Positions 56,711-64,000 of a DNA stretch of 64,000 nucleotides are shown here, piece after piece. Origin of the DNA: Leptolyngbya sp. 'hensonii' (lineage in GTDB: Bacteria; Cyanobacteriota; Cyanobacteriia; GCF-001939115). The DNA lies in the NCBI RefSeq assembly GCF_001939115.1, contig NZ_MQTZ01000041.1, forward strand, positions 312,816 through 376,815. Direction: 5' to 3'. The notes beneath the pieces were generated by a model, which did no database searches, was not told the DNA's origin, and saw only the letters and a list, made by a program, of their open reading frames with translations. The position numbers were made by a program, and so were the translations under genes. Each line of letters opens with the position of its first letter. The first letter of the stretch is position 1.

Positions 56711-57082
56711 ATGGAATGTAAGCTCTGCGGTCATTCTAAGACTCACAAGCATGGCAAGATGCCGAATGGGCATCAACGCTACTTTTGCCTGGGGTGCCAA
56801 CAAACCTTCTCAGAGAGTTTTGACACCCTCTACTACTACCGTCACGTCAGTCCAGAGCAAATTCAACAAGTCCTGCAAGCTCACAGTGAGGGCACCAGTT
56901 TACGAGGGATTAGTCGGATTAGCGGGTTAGCTTATAACACGGTAGTGAGTATTATTCGACGAGCGAGTAGCAAAGCTCAACTCATCCACAATCAGGAGGT
57001 GGCTCAAGTTGAAACCGAGGAGGTGAGTGCTGATGAGATGTGGTCCTTTGTGCAAAAAAACAGAAGCAATGTCTGCCCCTAG
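56711..57082 (+). CDS. IS1-family InsA-type regulator/transposase N-terminal part
   Basis: A 123-residue first frame. It begins with a zinc-binding CxxC...CxxC motif (MECKLCGHSKTHKHG and YFCLGCQQTF) and a helix-turn-helix segment (GTSLRGISRISGLAYNTVVS). In IS1 this part binds the ends and represses transcription. The frame passes through the heptamer A AAA AAC (57055-57061) in register, so ribosomes can slip back one base into the second frame; otherwise translation ends soon after. The normal end would make an InsA-like repressor of 123 residues. Confidence 0.88.
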   Translation: MECKLCGHSKTHKHGKMPNGHQRYFCLGCQQTFSESFDTLYYYRHVSPEQIQQVLQAHSEGTSLRGISRISGLAYNTVVSIIRRASSKAQLIHNQEVAQVETEEVSADEMWSFVQKNRSNVCP

Positions 57083-57540
57083 AATTAGACCTGGGAGACT
57101 GTTGGGTGGGGTTGAGTTTAGCCAATAGCAGTGGGCTGATCTTGGCGGCCCGTGTGGGAAAGCATACGGATGAGTTGATTGAAGAACTGATGGTCACAAC
57201 GGAAGGAAAAACGGAGTGCAAACAGTGGAATAGCGATGATTGGGGAGGGTATGAACGAGTCCTTCCACCAGAAATTCATCATCACATTGGTAAGGATAAA
57301 ACCCAACGATTAGAGAGAACCAATGGTATTATCCGGCAACAAACAGGACGGTGGCATCGACGGCAAAACAAGTTTGGCAAGGTGTGGGAGCAAACGAAGG
57401 TGACTACACGATTGGTTGTCAGTTATTTCAATTGGATTTGGCGGCATAGCCGATTCAAAACCACAGCATCTCAACGAGCAAACTTGGCAGCAGAGCCTTG
57501 GACTTGGCAAGACTTCGCAACTTATCCAACAATTATTTGA
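57040..57540 (+). CDS. IS1-family InsB-type transposase part, reached by -1 frameshift
   Basis: The second frame is in the -1 register relative to the first and overlaps it by 43 bp. Its own ATG (57040) has no ribosome site; expression by slipping at 57055-57061 is more likely and would give a fusion of about 276 residues. The DDE catalytic triad can be traced: Asp in the preceding SADEMWSF, Asp in NSDDWGGYE, and Glu in RLERTNGIIR. No internal stop is present, so the element may still be able to move. Confidence 0.88.
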   Translation: MVLCAKKQKQCLPLELDLGDCWVGLSLANSSGLILAARVGKHTDELIEELMVTTEGKTECKQWNSDDWGGYERVLPPEIHHHIGKDKTQRLERTNGIIRQQTGRWHRRQNKFGKVWEQTKVTTRLVVSYFNWIWRHSRFKTTASQRANLAAEPWTWQDFATYPTII

Positions 57541-57825: not shown

Positions 57826-59361
57826 ATGAGAATTTTGCTGGTAGAAGATGACGAAGGCATGCTGGAGATCCTGACCAGGCTTCTCTCTCAGCAAAACTAT
57901 GTGGTGGATGTTGCCCAGGATGGGGAATCGGGATGGGAACTGGTAGAAGTCTTTCCCTACGATCTTGTCTTACTGGATGTGATGCTGCCAAGGCTGGATG
58001 GTATTAGTTTTTGTCGTCGCCTAAGGGATCGGAAGAATCAGGTTCTGGTCATGCTTTTAACCGCCCGTGATACGACCACCGATAAGCTCATGGGGCTAGA
58101 TAGTGGGGCCGATGATTATGTGGTGAAGCCGTTCAATGTTCAGGAGCTAGCTGCCCGGATCCGGGCTTTGCTGCGGCGGGGTAGTACAGCAGCCTCGCCC
58201 CTGTTAACCTGCGGGGGCTTATGTTTGGATCCCAACGCCCACGAGGTCACCTATGGGGAGCAATCGCTCCAGTTCAGCCGTAAAGAATACCTCCTGCTGG
58301 AACTCTTCTTACGGAATCAGAGCCGGGTGTATAGCTACAGCGAGGTGGCGGATCATCTCTGGTCCCTGGATGTCGATCCCCCAACGGAGGCCACTATCCG
58401 GACCCATATTAAGAATATCCGCCGGGAGTTAAAGGCTGTCGGGGCCGAGAATTTAATTGAAACGATGTATGGGCAGGGATACCGAATTAATCCTGAGTTT
58501 GTCAAAACAGTTCAGGGTCAACCTAGGCCAGAAGGGGAGACAGGGGGAGGCAAACAAACCAGTCTGGATCTGGGTGTGAGTGAAATCTGGCAGCAAACCA
58601 AGGGAACCAGCTTTGAGCGAGTTGTTTGTCTGGAACAGGCCACTCAGGCCCTTAAATCAGGAACGTTCGATCGGGCAATGGGCCAACTGGCTGTTCAAAG
58701 TGCCCACAAGCTGGCAGGCTCCCTGGGGATGTTTGGATTTGAAACTGGGTCTACCCTGGCCCGACAACTGGAAACCCTGTTCCAAGCTGGGGTTAAACCC
58801 AAATCAAAGCTGACCCAAGATGTTCAGGAAAAACTTCAGCAGCAGGTGGAACCTTTAGTGGTGGCCCTGCGTCGGGAGTTGGAAGGTACGGCTCAGGAGG
58901 TTGTCTGTTTTCCAGAGGCGGAAGTCATTACTGGAGAGCTGGCACAGCTCAGAGCCAGGATTTTAGCAGTGGATGATGACCCACAAGTCCTGATCCTGTT
59001 GCAGTCACTCCTGGAGCCGTTGGAGGTACAGTTCACTGCGCTGGACAGCCCAACCCATTTTTGGGAAGTCTTACAATCAGCCCAGCCCGATCTGCTCCTC
59101 CTGGACATCAACATGCCAGGAATGAGCGGGTTCGAACTGTGCCGATCGCTCCGCCAGAACCAGGAATGGAACTGGTTGCCGGTCTTATTGCTGACAGCTC
59201 GCACCGATCGAGACAGCTTACAACAGGCGTTCTTGAGTGGTGCTGACGACTATGTGATTAAGCCCATTGCGGCCCAAGAATTGTTAATTCGCCTGCTCAA
59301 CCGCTTGCGACGAGCTCAAACCCTGACTAGTCGCAGCAACCCGACGAGAGATCTCAAATAG
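57826..59361 (+). CDS. Response regulator REC-OmpR DNA-binding-Hpt-REC
   Basis: A 511-residue protein. The first receiver (about 1-120) has Asp in LVLLDVMLPRLDG. An OmpR-type winged helix follows (about 135-225; LTCGGLCLDPNAHEVTYGEQ, PPTEATIRTHIKNIRREL). A histidine-phosphotransfer domain has SAHKLAGSLGMFG (His near 292). A second receiver (about 370-500) has Asp in LLLLDINMPGMSG. It can thus both receive and pass phosphate and bind DNA. It heads the plus-strand signalling operon. The IS1-family element lies 268 bp upstream, in what is probably its promoter region. Confidence 0.92.
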   Translation: MRILLVEDDEGMLEILTRLLSQQNYVVDVAQDGESGWELVEVFPYDLVLLDVMLPRLDGISFCRRLRDRKNQVLVMLLTARDTTTDKLMGLDSGADDYVVKPFNVQELAARIRALLRRGSTAASPLLTCGGLCLDPNAHEVTYGEQSLQFSRKEYLLLELFLRNQSRVYSYSEVADHLWSLDVDPPTEATIRTHIKNIRRELKAVGAENLIETMYGQGYRINPEFVKTVQGQPRPEGETGGGKQTSLDLGVSEIWQQTKGTSFERVVCLEQATQALKSGTFDRAMGQLAVQSAHKLAGSLGMFGFETGSTLARQLETLFQAGVKPKSKLTQDVQEKLQQQVEPLVVALRRELEGTAQEVVCFPEAEVITGELAQLRARILAVDDDPQVLILLQSLLEPLEVQFTALDSPTHFWEVLQSAQPDLLLLDINMPGMSGFELCRSLRQNQEWNWLPVLLLTARTDRDSLQQAFLSGADDYVIKPIAAQELLIRLLNRLRRAQTLTSRSNPTRDLK

Positions 59362-59384: not shown

Positions 59385-61082
59385 TTGATGGTTAAAGTAA
59401 TGAAGCAGGCCTTGTGGACTGATATGAGCAAAACACTCCACGTTCTGTTTATTGAAGACTCAGAAGATGACATGTTACTGCTTCTGCAGGAATTTCGTAG
59501 AGGAAAGTACACGATCGTTCATGAACGAGTTGAGACTGCCGCTGCGATCACTGCTGCTTTAGCAAAAAAAACGTGGGATGTTGTGATTGCAGACTACCTG
59601 TTGCCGACCCTCAGTGCCCCGGAGGCATTGGAGATTCTCCAGGCCAGTGGTCTTGATCTTCCCTTTATTGTGGTGTCTGGGTCCATTGGAGAAGATGTCG
59701 CGGTCACGGTTATGAAGGCTGGAGCCCATGACTATCTGCTCAAAGGGAATTTGAAGCGGTTTATTCCAGCCGTAGAGCGGGAATTACGGGAAGTAGAAAA
59801 CCGAAACCAGAAACGGCAGGCCGAAGCAGCCTTGCTGGAGGCTTTTAATAAGCTGGAATCACTGGTGGAAATCCGGACGGCGGAGCTGGTCCGGGTCAAT
59901 GAAGAATTACAGGCCGAGGTGGAAGAGCGGATTAAGGCGGAGCAGGCCCTGTTTCAACTGGCGGCGATCGTGCAATCCTCGGAAGATGCGATCATCAGTA
60001 CCAGCCTGGATGGGCGAGTGCTGAGCTGGAATCCGGGGGCCGAAAAACTGTATGGCTATCTAGCGGAGGAAGCCGAGGGGCAGTTCCTGGACAGCCTGAT
60101 CCAACCGAATTCCGACTTTGCTCTCCAGGTGCTTCAAATCAAATACCCGGTTGAGACGGTTGATCATCGTCAAACGATGCATAAGCGGAAAGACGGTGAA
60201 GTGATTGATGTGTTTATGATCGTCTCGCCGATCAGGGATGCCTCCGGTAGAATTGCGGGGATGTCGATGATATCGACGGATATCAGTGATCGTCGCACAA
60301 TTGATCGAATTAAGGATGAACTGATCTCGATCGTGAGCCACGAATTGCGCACCCCCATTACCTCGCTCCAGGCGTCGATCGATCTCTTGCTGACCGGCCA
60401 ACTGGGGGATTTGTCTGATAGTGGTCGGCAGATGCTGGAAATTGCGGCCAATAATATCGATCGCCTGGTTCATGTGACAAACAATATTCTGGATCTGGAG
60501 CGCTTTGCATCCGGGACAAGTCGGCTCTACAAACAGCCCTGTAATGTGACTGATTTGCTGACCCACGCCATGTCAGAGATGCAGGATGTTGCGGGCAAGG
60601 CGGGGGTAACGCTCCATGTTTCGCCGCTGTTTAGCGAGATTCAGGCTGATCCAAAACGAATTATTCAAGTTCTAGCGAATCTTCTGAGTAATGCGATTAA
60701 ATTTTCTGCACCCGGGGGGCGGATCTGGCTCAGCGCAGAGATTCGCCGGGAAGATACAAACCCGACTGCCAGAGCCCAGCCGATTCCTTTTCCCTATCTT
60801 TTGATTACAGTTAAAGATGAAGGGGAGGGAATTCCAATTCAAAACCTCGATACTATTTTTGAGCAGTTTGAACAGGTCGATGCCTCAGATTCCCGGCGGC
60901 AAGGAGGCGCGGGGTTGGGGCTGGCTGTCTGTCGCAGTATTGTACGGCAGCATCAGGGCAATCTCTGGGTCGAGAGTGAACTGGGTCGAGGCAGTACCTT
61001 CTACGTGGCTTTGCCACTGGGAGCAAAAAGGTCAGGGGATATCCAGGACAACCAATTCTTAGGGGTTATGTATGGTAGTTAA
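59385..61082 (+). CDS. REC-PAS histidine kinase
   Basis: A 565-residue soluble protein; translation may instead start at the ATG at 59424, directly before the receiver (SKTLHVLFIEDSEDDMLL). The receiver has Asp in VVIADYLLP. A coiled-coil, a PAS domain (about 190-300; AIVQSSEDAIISTSLDGRVL), a DHp domain with VSHELRTPITSLQAS (His near 318) and an ATPase domain ([30 protein letters not shown]) follow. The last bases overlap the downstream regulator by 11 bp, so translation is probably coupled. It lies 23 bp after the 511-residue regulator. Confidence 0.92.
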   Translation: MMVKVMKQALWTDMSKTLHVLFIEDSEDDMLLLLQEFRRGKYTIVHERVETAAAITAALAKKTWDVVIADYLLPTLSAPEALEILQASGLDLPFIVVSGSIGEDVAVTVMKAGAHDYLLKGNLKRFIPAVERELREVENRNQKRQAEAALLEAFNKLESLVEIRTAELVRVNEELQAEVEERIKAEQALFQLAAIVQSSEDAIISTSLDGRVLSWNPGAEKLYGYLAEEAEGQFLDSLIQPNSDFALQVLQIKYPVETVDHRQTMHKRKDGEVIDVFMIVSPIRDASGRIAGMSMISTDISDRRTIDRIKDELISIVSHELRTPITSLQASIDLLLTGQLGDLSDSGRQMLEIAANNIDRLVHVTNNILDLERFASGTSRLYKQPCNVTDLLTHAMSEMQDVAGKAGVTLHVSPLFSEIQADPKRIIQVLANLLSNAIKFSAPGGRIWLSAEIRREDTNPTARAQPIPFPYLLITVKDEGEGIPIQNLDTIFEQFEQVDASDSRRQGGAGLGLAVCRSIVRQHQGNLWVESELGRGSTFYVALPLGAKRSGDIQDNQFLGVMYGS

Positions 61083-61473
61083 ACGTGTGTTGGTCATTGA
61101 TGACGAAGATGATATTCGGGAAGTTGCAAAGTTGAGTCTGAAAGTTATGGCTGGGATAGATGTAATCCTGGCCGGGACCAGTGGTGAAGGCTTGGCAAAA
61201 GCAGAAGCAGAACAACCCGATGCGATTTTGCTGGATGTCATGTTACCAGATATGGATGGTGTTGTTACCTTTCAACGCCTGCAGTCCAATCCTGCCACCC
61301 AACATATTCCAGTAATTCTACTGACAGCCAAGGTGCATGCCTCCGATCAGCGCCGCTTTGCCAACTTAGGGGTTAAGGCGATGATCACGAAACCATTTAA
61401 ACCCGCCAAACTGGCCGAACAGCTTCTGAGTGTGCTGGGTTGGAGTGCCGGGACTACTTCAGGATCTAACTAA
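61072..61473 (+). CDS. Single-domain response regulator
   Basis: A 133-residue CheY-like receiver: acidic pair in VLVIDDEDDIRE, phospho-acceptor Asp in AILLDVMLPDMDG, Thr in LLTAK and Lys in MITKPFKPAKL. It has no output domain and begins 11 bp before the end of the upstream kinase gene, which strongly suggests that they work as a pair. It could relay phosphate to the DHp-EAL protein encoded 187 bp downstream, or to an Hpt domain such as that of the 511-residue regulator. That is inference. Confidence 0.92.
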   Translation: MVVKRVLVIDDEDDIREVAKLSLKVMAGIDVILAGTSGEGLAKAEAEQPDAILLDVMLPDMDGVVTFQRLQSNPATQHIPVILLTAKVHASDQRRFANLGVKAMITKPFKPAKLAEQLLSVLGWSAGTTSGSN

Positions 61474-61660: not shown

Positions 61661-62761
61661 ATGACAGTTAGCCAACCCCATACTCTACAAGTTGCTCATT
61701 CCGCTACTCCGGTCATGACAGATAAAGAGCTTTCAGATGTATTGTTTGTTGACCTCAGTCATGAATTACGCACACCTTTAACTGCGATTCAGGGTGCTCT
61801 TGAACTCCTCGGTAGTGGCAAACTGGGAACTCTCTCTGAGCAGGAGCGCCGAATGGTAGAGATTGCTGCCAGTAATGCCAATCGCTTGCTGCGGCTGACT
61901 GCAGCGATCGAGGGGGAACTGGAGTCCCAGGTGAGCTTTCTGTCGGCTGACGAAATGGCCCGGCTCCGCCTGGAGCGGGATCTGGAAATGGCTTTAGAAC
62001 AGAAAGAATTTAAACTTCATTATCAGCCCATTATTTCCCTGGAATCCTCCTCGATTGTGGGGTTTGAAGCGCTGCTCCGATGGCAACATCCCTATCTTGG
62101 GCTGATCCCACCGGATGAATTTATTCCGCTGGCAGAAGCCAGCGGCTCCATCATTGAGATTGGAGCCTGGGTTTTATGGGAAGCCTGTCGCCAACTGCGA
62201 AGCTGGCAGCAGCGTTTTCCCGAAGCCTTTCGCTCCCTTACCGTCAGTGTTAACCTGTCCAGCAAACAACTGGCCCTGCCGGATCTGGTGGAACACATCG
62301 GACAGGTTTTGCAAGAAACAGGGCTGAGTTCCCAGAGCCTCGTTCTGGAAATCACTGAAAGTGCCGTCGTAGAGAATTCCAAAACGGCCAAGCAGGCTTT
62401 GGAACGGATTCAAAATCTGGGGGTACGGGTTTATATCGATGACTTTGGGACAGGCTATTCCTCCCTGAGCCGATTATATGAATTGCCCCTGGATGTCTTG
62501 AAGATTGATCGCTCCTTTGTCCAGCAATTGAACTCCCAGAGTGGCGAGCATCTGGTGCGGGCGATCGTGAACCTGGCGCACAATCTAGGAATGGAGGTCA
62601 TTGCTGAAGGGGTGGAAATGGTTGAACAGGTGATGAAACTGCGATTGTTAGGGTGTAATCGGGTTCAAGGTTATTTCTTTGCCAAACCCCTCTCCCAGGA
62701 TGACCTGGCTGAACTTGTTTGTGAATTACCCTCTAACACTTTGTGGCAGCCGGTTTCATAA
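61661..62761 (+). CDS. DHp (HisKA)-EAL fusion: c-di-GMP phosphodiesterase with phospho-acceptor histidine
   Basis: A 366-residue soluble protein. Residues about 25-90 are a HisKA dimerisation domain with an intact H box, [15 protein letters not shown] (His34). No ATPase (HATPase_c) domain follows. Residues about 105-355 are an EAL domain with the metal and catalytic motifs intact: FEALLRW (E136), NLSSKQL, EITES, DDFGTGYSSLSRL, KIDRSFV, AEGVE and GYFFAKPLS. EAL domains hydrolyse c-di-GMP to pGpG. By hand alignment the DHp segment shares about 28 of 62 residues with the DHp of the kinase at 59385, so it was probably copied from that or a related gene. Phosphorylation at His34 in trans could control the EAL output, which is inference. 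Confidence 0.9.
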   Translation: MTVSQPHTLQVAHSATPVMTDKELSDVLFVDLSHELRTPLTAIQGALELLGSGKLGTLSEQERRMVEIAASNANRLLRLTAAIEGELESQVSFLSADEMARLRLERDLEMALEQKEFKLHYQPIISLESSSIVGFEALLRWQHPYLGLIPPDEFIPLAEASGSIIEIGAWVLWEACRQLRSWQQRFPEAFRSLTVSVNLSSKQLALPDLVEHIGQVLQETGLSSQSLVLEITESAVVENSKTAKQALERIQNLGVRVYIDDFGTGYSSLSRLYELPLDVLKIDRSFVQQLNSQSGEHLVRAIVNLAHNLGMEVIAEGVEMVEQVMKLRLLGCNRVQGYFFAKPLSQDDLAELVCELPSNTLWQPVS

Positions 62762-62782: not shown

Positions 62783-64000
62783 ATGAGGAAGAGGCGGCTT
62801 TGGCTTAGGTTATCTCCTGGCAAAACGCCCAGTCTGCCATTAAGGGTTGCACTGGTTGTTCCGTTTGTGTTTCAGATCTCGATCGCTGTGGGGCTGACCG
62901 GATATTTATCTCTCCGCAATGGGCAGAAGGCGGTTGATGATGTCACCATTCAGCTCCGGAATGAAATCAGCAATCGGGTTCAAAAGCATCTGGATACCTA
63001 TCTAGCTACCCCTCACCAGATCAATCAGATCAACCTGGCTGCGGCTGAAATGGGGCTGCTTAATCTGGATGATTTTCAGAAAACAGGTCAATACTTCTGG
63101 AAACAGATGCAGATCTTTCAGGTGGGGTACAACAACTTTGCCACAACCACCGGTGAATTTATTGGGGTAGAACGAACGGATAAGGGGGAACTCCTGATCA
63201 ACGAAGTCTCCCAGCGGGCTACCAGGGGCAAGTTATATGTCTATCAGACAAATTCCCAGGGCGATCGGGTCCAGCGGCAGGCTGTCAAGGACTACGATCC
63301 TCGTCAGGAAGCCTGGTATGCCGATGCTGTGGAGGTTAGGCGTCCCGTCTGGAGCAAGATTTACCAGTGGGAAGATAAACCGGAAGTACTTTCTCTTTCA
63401 GCCAGCTATCCGGTTTACGGGAAGAACCATACCCTGATTGGGGTCATTGGGGTGGATTTAATTTTGTCCCAGATCAGTGAATTTTTGAATGGTTTGGATG
63501 TGGGTCAGTCGGGGAAAATCCTGATCCTGGAACGGGATGGCCTACTCGTGGCCAGTTCTGAAATCGATCGGCCCTTTGTGCTGGTCGATCGACAGGCCAG
63601 GCGACTCAGGGCGGTAAAAAGTAGTGATCCGCTGATCCAGGCAACGGCACTATCCCTGACCGAAAAATTTGCCGATTTGAGGCAGATCCGGAGCAGTCAG
63701 CAATGGGAGTTCAGAACAGCAGAAGGGGCGCGGCAGTTCGTCCAGGTGACGCCATGGCGGGATTCCTTCGGGCTGAACTGGTTGATCGTTGTCATGCTTC
63801 CAGAAGCAAACTTCATGGAACAAATTCATGCCAGCACCCGCACCACTATTCTGCTTTGTCTGCTGGCGTCCCTGGTGGCTTTCTTGATGAGCTTAAAAAC
63901 AGCCCAATGGATTACAACCCGGATCGTTCAGTTGATTACCGCCAGTCAGAAGATTGCCAGCGGGGACTATGATCAAAAAGTTGCCATCAGCGGGCTGCAA
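62783..64000 (+). CDS. dCache-HAMP sensory receptor, partial (3' end outside the window)
   Basis: An open frame of 406 residues runs from the ATG at 62783 to the window end without a stop. A first membrane helix (LRVALVVPFVFQISIAVGLT, about 21-40), a periplasmic dCache domain (about 45-335; QEAWYADAVEVRRPVWSKIY and GVIGVDLILSQISEFL) and a second helix (TTILLCLLASLVAFLMSL) are followed by the start of HAMP (ITASQKIASGDYDQKV). Its N-terminal half is paralogous to the receptor at 47116. The output domain (kinase, cyclase or chemotaxis) lies beyond the window. It follows the DHp-EAL gene by 21 bp. Confidence 0.88.
   Translation, partial: MRKRRLWLRLSPGKTPSLPLRVALVVPFVFQISIAVGLTGYLSLRNGQKAVDDVTIQLRNEISNRVQKHLDTYLATPHQINQINLAAAEMGLLNLDDFQKTGQYFWKQMQIFQVGYNNFATTTGEFIGVERTDKGELLINEVSQRATRGKLYVYQTNSQGDRVQRQAVKDYDPRQEAWYADAVEVRRPVWSKIYQWEDKPEVLSLSASYPVYGKNHTLIGVIGVDLILSQISEFLNGLDVGQSGKILILERDGLLVASSEIDRPFVLVDRQARRLRAVKSSDPLIQATALSLTEKFADLRQIRSSQQWEFRTAEGARQFVQVTPWRDSFGLNWLIVVMLPEANFMEQIHASTRTTILLCLLASLVAFLMSLKTAQWITTRIVQLITASQKIASGDYDQKVAISGLQ

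Follow-up and report, generated by a model that had tools for sequence, protein, structure and literature searches.

Cyanobacterial proteins of the DHp-EAL type join a histidine phospho-acceptor (DHp) domain directly to an EAL domain predicted to hydrolyze c-di-GMP, and their steady partner is a single-domain receiver (SD-REC) encoded close by, not a neighboring kinase. Judged from the sequences, the small receiver beside DHp-EAL probably switches the enzyme. We lean, if only modestly, toward the view that a DHp captured from a local kinase class now reads SD-REC and gates the EAL domain. If true, what serves as the output module of a kinase now works as the input to a second-messenger enzyme, and a direct receiver-to-DHp-to-EAL wire would run from a phosphorelay to c-di-GMP breakdown.

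Architecture and conservation of DHp-EAL

In the window, the 64,000-nucleotide stretch of Leptolyngbya sp. 'hensonii' DNA that was analyzed, an ORF on the + strand (61661..62761) starts with ATG and encodes a protein of 366 aa, for which 58 homologs were aligned. Pfam assigns HisKA to residues 31-80 (E = 1.9e-13; 50.7 bits, cut-off 26.9) and EAL to residues 106-343 (61976..62689, +; E = 1.2e-80). His34 (codon CAT, 61760-61762) lies inside an intact H box, HELRTP. The protein thus has the DHp and phospho-acceptor His of HisKA kinases together with the fold and the conserved catalytic and metal residues of EAL phosphodiesterases. Pfam gave no match to HATPase_c at E ≤ 1 and none to Response_reg, so that DHp-EAL is neither a histidine kinase, as defined by an ATPase domain in the same protein, nor a REC-EAL response regulator. 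An AlphaFold2 model, computed from an alignment of 17 sequences, consists of a two-helix hairpin (helices 21-51 and 60-84), then a linker, then the EAL fold. Its mean pLDDT is 81.7, with about 52-77 in the hairpin, low values in the linker (residues ~85-95) and confident values in the EAL domain. Helices and HisKA match together place the DHp hairpin at residues 21-84 (61721..61912, +) and the linker at residues 85-95 (61913..61945, +). The best PDB matches of the model in Foldseek were the EAL domains of BifA (8arv) and MorA. From this domain content DHp-EAL is predicted to be a c-di-GMP phosphodiesterase with the DHp as its only control part. An earlier sequence-only reading of this DNA had described an intact HisKA H box and a complete EAL domain with no ATPase domain, and ORF, Pfam and AlphaFold2 bear this out. 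Loss of an ATPase domain through a frameshift or sequencing error was considered and rejected, as the identical compact frame occurs in 58 proteins; in these 58 homologs the DHp continues straight into the EAL domain.

Eight EAL residues (E136, N198, D260, D261, K281, E316, E319, and Q336) are invariant among the 58 aligned members and E230 is kept in 57; they correspond to the catalytic residues of RocR and other EAL enzymes. Conservation in the DHp extends to His34 (56/58), Glu35 (57/58), Thr38 (54/58), and Pro39 (58/58). Median pairwise identity is 56% for the DHp and 55% for the EAL domain, indicating that the two evolve at similar rates. The linker is the most variable stretch (entropy of 2.41 bits, vs. 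1.37 for the DHp and 1.42 for the EAL domain), yet its length is constant: His34 and Leu108, in the first EAL helix, are separated by 74 residues in 56 members and by 73 in the other two. Because linker length is fixed while its sequence is free, the alignment suggests that DHp and EAL are mechanically coupled through it.

EAL enzymes function as dimers, and some members lack the acceptor His, both of which would fit a DHp that merely dimerizes the EAL domain. However, DHp structures show the acceptor His exposed to solvent, and dimerization does not require it; in this family it is kept in 56/58 even though DHp identity between members falls to 32%. Dimerization would also leave the association with SD-REC, described below, unexplained, and we give a purely scaffolding DHp only a slim chance. 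The objection that the DHp is a dimerization relic in related genomes, anticipated in the sequence-only reading, was checked in relatives and appears unlikely because of this same retention of the phospho-acceptor His.

Occurrence in cyanobacteria

A single-protein scan of genome contigs yielded three further full-length DHp-EAL proteins. Profile A1, built from 17 members and counted at E ≤ 1e-120, matched 52 of 390 Cyanobacteriia genomes (13% of the sample), spread over 25 of 160 genera; almost every match spans the two domains within a compact frame of some 330-420 residues. Profile A2, which is shorter and covers the DHp and the start of the EAL domain, matched 26 of 194 Cyanobacteriia genomes at E ≤ 1e-25, more distant members included, and at E ≤ 1e-20 it detected DHp-EAL in 0 of 299 Pseudomonadota genomes. 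The recurrence of DHp-EAL among the 390 genomes is well beyond chance, and the family looks cyanobacterial, judged from the Cyanobacteriia and Pseudomonadota samples; the order-level sample was the source genome alone. A search for HisKA-EAL proteins without HATPase_c in cyanobacterial genomes, with comparison of their gene neighborhoods, had been proposed on first reading, and it has returned both a family and, in SD-REC, a recurrent neighbor. All plasmid matches were below 60% identity; where the matched features were annotated, most were named as EAL or GGDEF proteins, and some alignments reach into the DHp region. Among the NCBIfam matches of DHp-EAL there was no model spanning the whole architecture. 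The term 'HisKA-EAL' was not found in a literature search conducted mostly without subscription papers, and domain databases may list the architecture; the accessible parts of the cyanobacterial c-di-GMP literature make no mention of a protein of this type. One contig carries a tandem pair of DHp-EAL genes (L170:6821-9066) and, at a distance of some 20 kb, a third copy.

The conserved neighborhood and its receiver

The window locus runs on a single strand (+), in the order REC-Trans_reg_C-Hpt-REC regulator (57826..59361), REC-PAS-HisKA-HATPase kinase (59385..61082), SD-REC (61072..61473; Response_reg, 1.9e-23), DHp-EAL, dCache-HAMP-PAS-HisKA-HATPase kinase, and a large REC/GAF/PAS hybrid kinase, with the domains of the first three assigned by Pfam. 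The SD-REC gene overlaps that of the REC-PAS kinase by 11 nt, and a scan of the interval from SD-REC to DHp-EAL for promoters and terminators found none. The ORF of the dCache kinase begins 21 nt after DHp-EAL; only its start (62783..64000) is contained here, as the ORF runs beyond the window end, and the full protein is in L216. The first regulator has an unusual order, combining a DNA-binding regulator, a phosphorelay Hpt and a second receiver in one protein. Between it and a minus-strand REC kinase sits an IS1-type transposase in two overlapping frames (56711-57540, +), with a DDE_Tnp_IS1 match (E = 6.9e-11) and a weak InsA-like zinc ribbon.

Across the family, 37/58 DHp-EAL genes have an SD-REC gene within 3 kb. 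Of the cyanobacterial EAL genes taken as controls (19 of the same genome, 17 of other cyanobacteria), 1/36 does (Fisher p = 7e-10). The association holds after the family is collapsed at 70% identity (p = 8e-7), and short contigs account for some of the 21/58 loci where no SD-REC was present within 3 kb. The REC-Trans_reg_C-Hpt-REC regulator behaves likewise: 32/58 DHp-EAL genes have it within 5 kb, compared with 0/36 controls (Fisher p = 3e-9). D10, D55, T85, and K107 are present in 36/36 SD-REC neighbors and D11 in 35/36, the residues expected of a working receiver. Gene association by itself is no demonstration of contact between SD-REC and DHp-EAL.

The sequence-only reading had offered two ways of linking the DHp to its surroundings. 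The first, pairing with the adjacent REC-PAS kinase, fails as a general case. That kinase adjoins DHp-EAL in about 5/58 loci (the window and L105-L108; 4 under a strict criterion), and with two loci that have a different kinase of the same DHp class nearby (L174, L175), the class is near about 7/58. For many cassettes of SD-REC and DHp-EAL no kinase was detected within 3 kb by phmmer with the window domains, a search that may miss distant kinases. The frequencies above favor the second option, in which the DHp is linked to the single-REC regulator, and the broader proposal of a tie to two-component signaling gains support from the conserved gene order.

Kinase pairing could also take the form of a split kinase, DHp-EAL hetero-dimerizing with, or being trans-phosphorylated by, a kinase whose DHp is related to its own, so that His34~P would control the EAL domain. 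The closely related DHps of the nearby kinases at the window, L105-L108, L174, and L175 are consistent with this, as is the near-invariant E35, at a position next to the His that is implicated in kinase autophosphorylation. The scarcity of such kinases at the loci argues against it. In addition, an alignment comparison shows that the DHp of DHp-EAL stops short of the NDxLDLxR-like segment that connects to the ATPase domain in histidine kinases. In SMART, HATPase is missing from 3.66% of HisKA proteins, and for some of these a split-kinase arrangement has been proposed (PMC3591291). Like split kinases, among them CheA3/CheA4 and HisKA proteins lacking HATPase (PMC3591291), DHp-EAL has a phospho-acceptor domain without an ATPase domain and an HE/DxxT motif. 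Unlike them, it carries a second-messenger enzyme, and near DHp-EAL loci we saw complete kinases at some but no dedicated ATPase-only protein. A split kinase is, in our view, unlikely.

Ancestry of the DHp and its possible control by SD-REC

A profile of the DHp-EAL DHp scored eight kinases at 64-85 bits, including the REC-PAS kinase of the window at 70.8 bits, while the other kinases at these loci reached at most 28. They comprise the kinases close to DHp-EAL in the window, L105-L108, L174, and L175, plus one in L196, elsewhere in the same genome. In a DHp tree, weakly resolved because it rests on about 65 residues, the DHps of all 58 DHp-EAL proteins fall into one group, to which the eight kinases are closest; local support is 0.96 for the 58/61 clade and 0.79 for the 58/66 clade, and the branch uniting the 58 alone is unsupported. 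The DHp of the REC-PAS kinase had been singled out as the closest relative in the window, which holds among the window kinases; genome-wide, kinase C19 is slightly closer, with 52% DHp identity to DHp-EAL vs. 47%. The L196 locus (L196:5865-10478) carries a paralogous module, made up of Hpt regulator, PAS kinase and an overlapping SD-REC, without DHp-EAL; the DHp of its kinase is the closest to the DHp-EAL family. As the simplest history, we infer that within a module of this kind an EAL domain became joined to a DHp of the kinase class, and that many loci later lost the kinase but retained SD-REC and DHp-EAL together.

Receivers are the usual partners of DHp domains. A DHp of the local kinase class, its kept His, the fixed spacing, an intact EAL domain, and a competent adjoining SD-REC together point to the DHp as a receiver-sensing input. 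In the mechanism we favor, a cognate kinase or Hpt relay would phosphorylate SD-REC, and the four-helix dimer of the DHp would dock it; SD-REC~P would then hand its phosphate back to His34, or bind in a phospho-dependent manner, and the fixed-length linker would relay the signal to the EAL dimer, altering its activity. The observed core of this scheme comprises architecture, conservation, spacing, gene association, and DHp ancestry; around it we infer REC docking, phosphate transfer, an active EAL domain, and the sign of its control. Its most specific form, in which phosphate passes backward from the SD-REC Asp to the DHp His and thereby switches c-di-GMP hydrolysis, with docking alone serving some His-less lineages, is put forward tentatively.

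Signal could also travel in the opposite direction, as EAL domains can serve as c-di-GMP sensors, e.g., in LapD and FimX. The main role of DHp-EAL would then be to dephosphorylate SD-REC~P or drain phosphate from it, at a level set by c-di-GMP sensing in the EAL domain. HELRT does match the phosphatase motif HE/DxxN/T (PMC3591291), including the well-kept T38. However, motifs of this type are generic for HisKA, and catalytic EAL residues kept in 57-58/58 members fit an active enzyme better than a pure sensor like LapD or FimX. Such reverse flow strikes us as decidedly unlikely.

Two-component control of EAL proteins through a receiver is well known. DHp-EAL resembles the REC-EAL regulators RocR and PvrR in tying an EAL phosphodiesterase to two-component signaling, but its input is a DHp, the His side, rather than a receiver, the Asp side. 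A precedent for receiver sensing that reverses the usual flow is the pseudokinase DivL of Caulobacter, whose kinase-derived DHp senses DivK~P (PMC4211667). The proposed sensing of a single-domain receiver by a kinase-derived DHp is similar in DHp-EAL, and several members have Tyr in place of the His. DivL retains a CA domain and PAS sensors and acts in the CckA-CtrA pathway, whereas DHp-EAL has no CA domain, is fused to an EAL enzyme and keeps the His in most members. In Anabaena PCC 7120, a REC and Hpt relay, CdgK/CdgS, drives a c-di-GMP enzyme (PMC9927289). It shares with DHp-EAL a cyanobacterial REC/Hpt setting linked to c-di-GMP turnover, although the enzyme at its output is a diguanylate cyclase with a REC domain, not a DHp-EAL phosphodiesterase.

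The window protein keeps His34, unlike DivL, but in six other members the acceptor His is replaced as in DivL, by Tyr (L174 and L217-L219, the latter one family), Asp (L172), or Gln (L220). Since these six carry Y, D, or Q, phosphorylation of the His cannot be essential in every lineage. An SD-REC lies within 3 kb of 1/6 His-less members (L220 only) vs. 37/56 His-bearing ones (Fisher p = 0.03, a value that ignores relatedness among members), a hint that presence of the His and of SD-REC are linked. As L220 demonstrates, though, the pairing with SD-REC can outlast the His. Being common, compact (about 330-430 aa) and supplied with natural His-less variants, the DHp-EAL family can be used to test phosphotransfer against docking. 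At L220, the Gln-bearing member has its SD-REC adjacent and a REC-EAL gene upstream.
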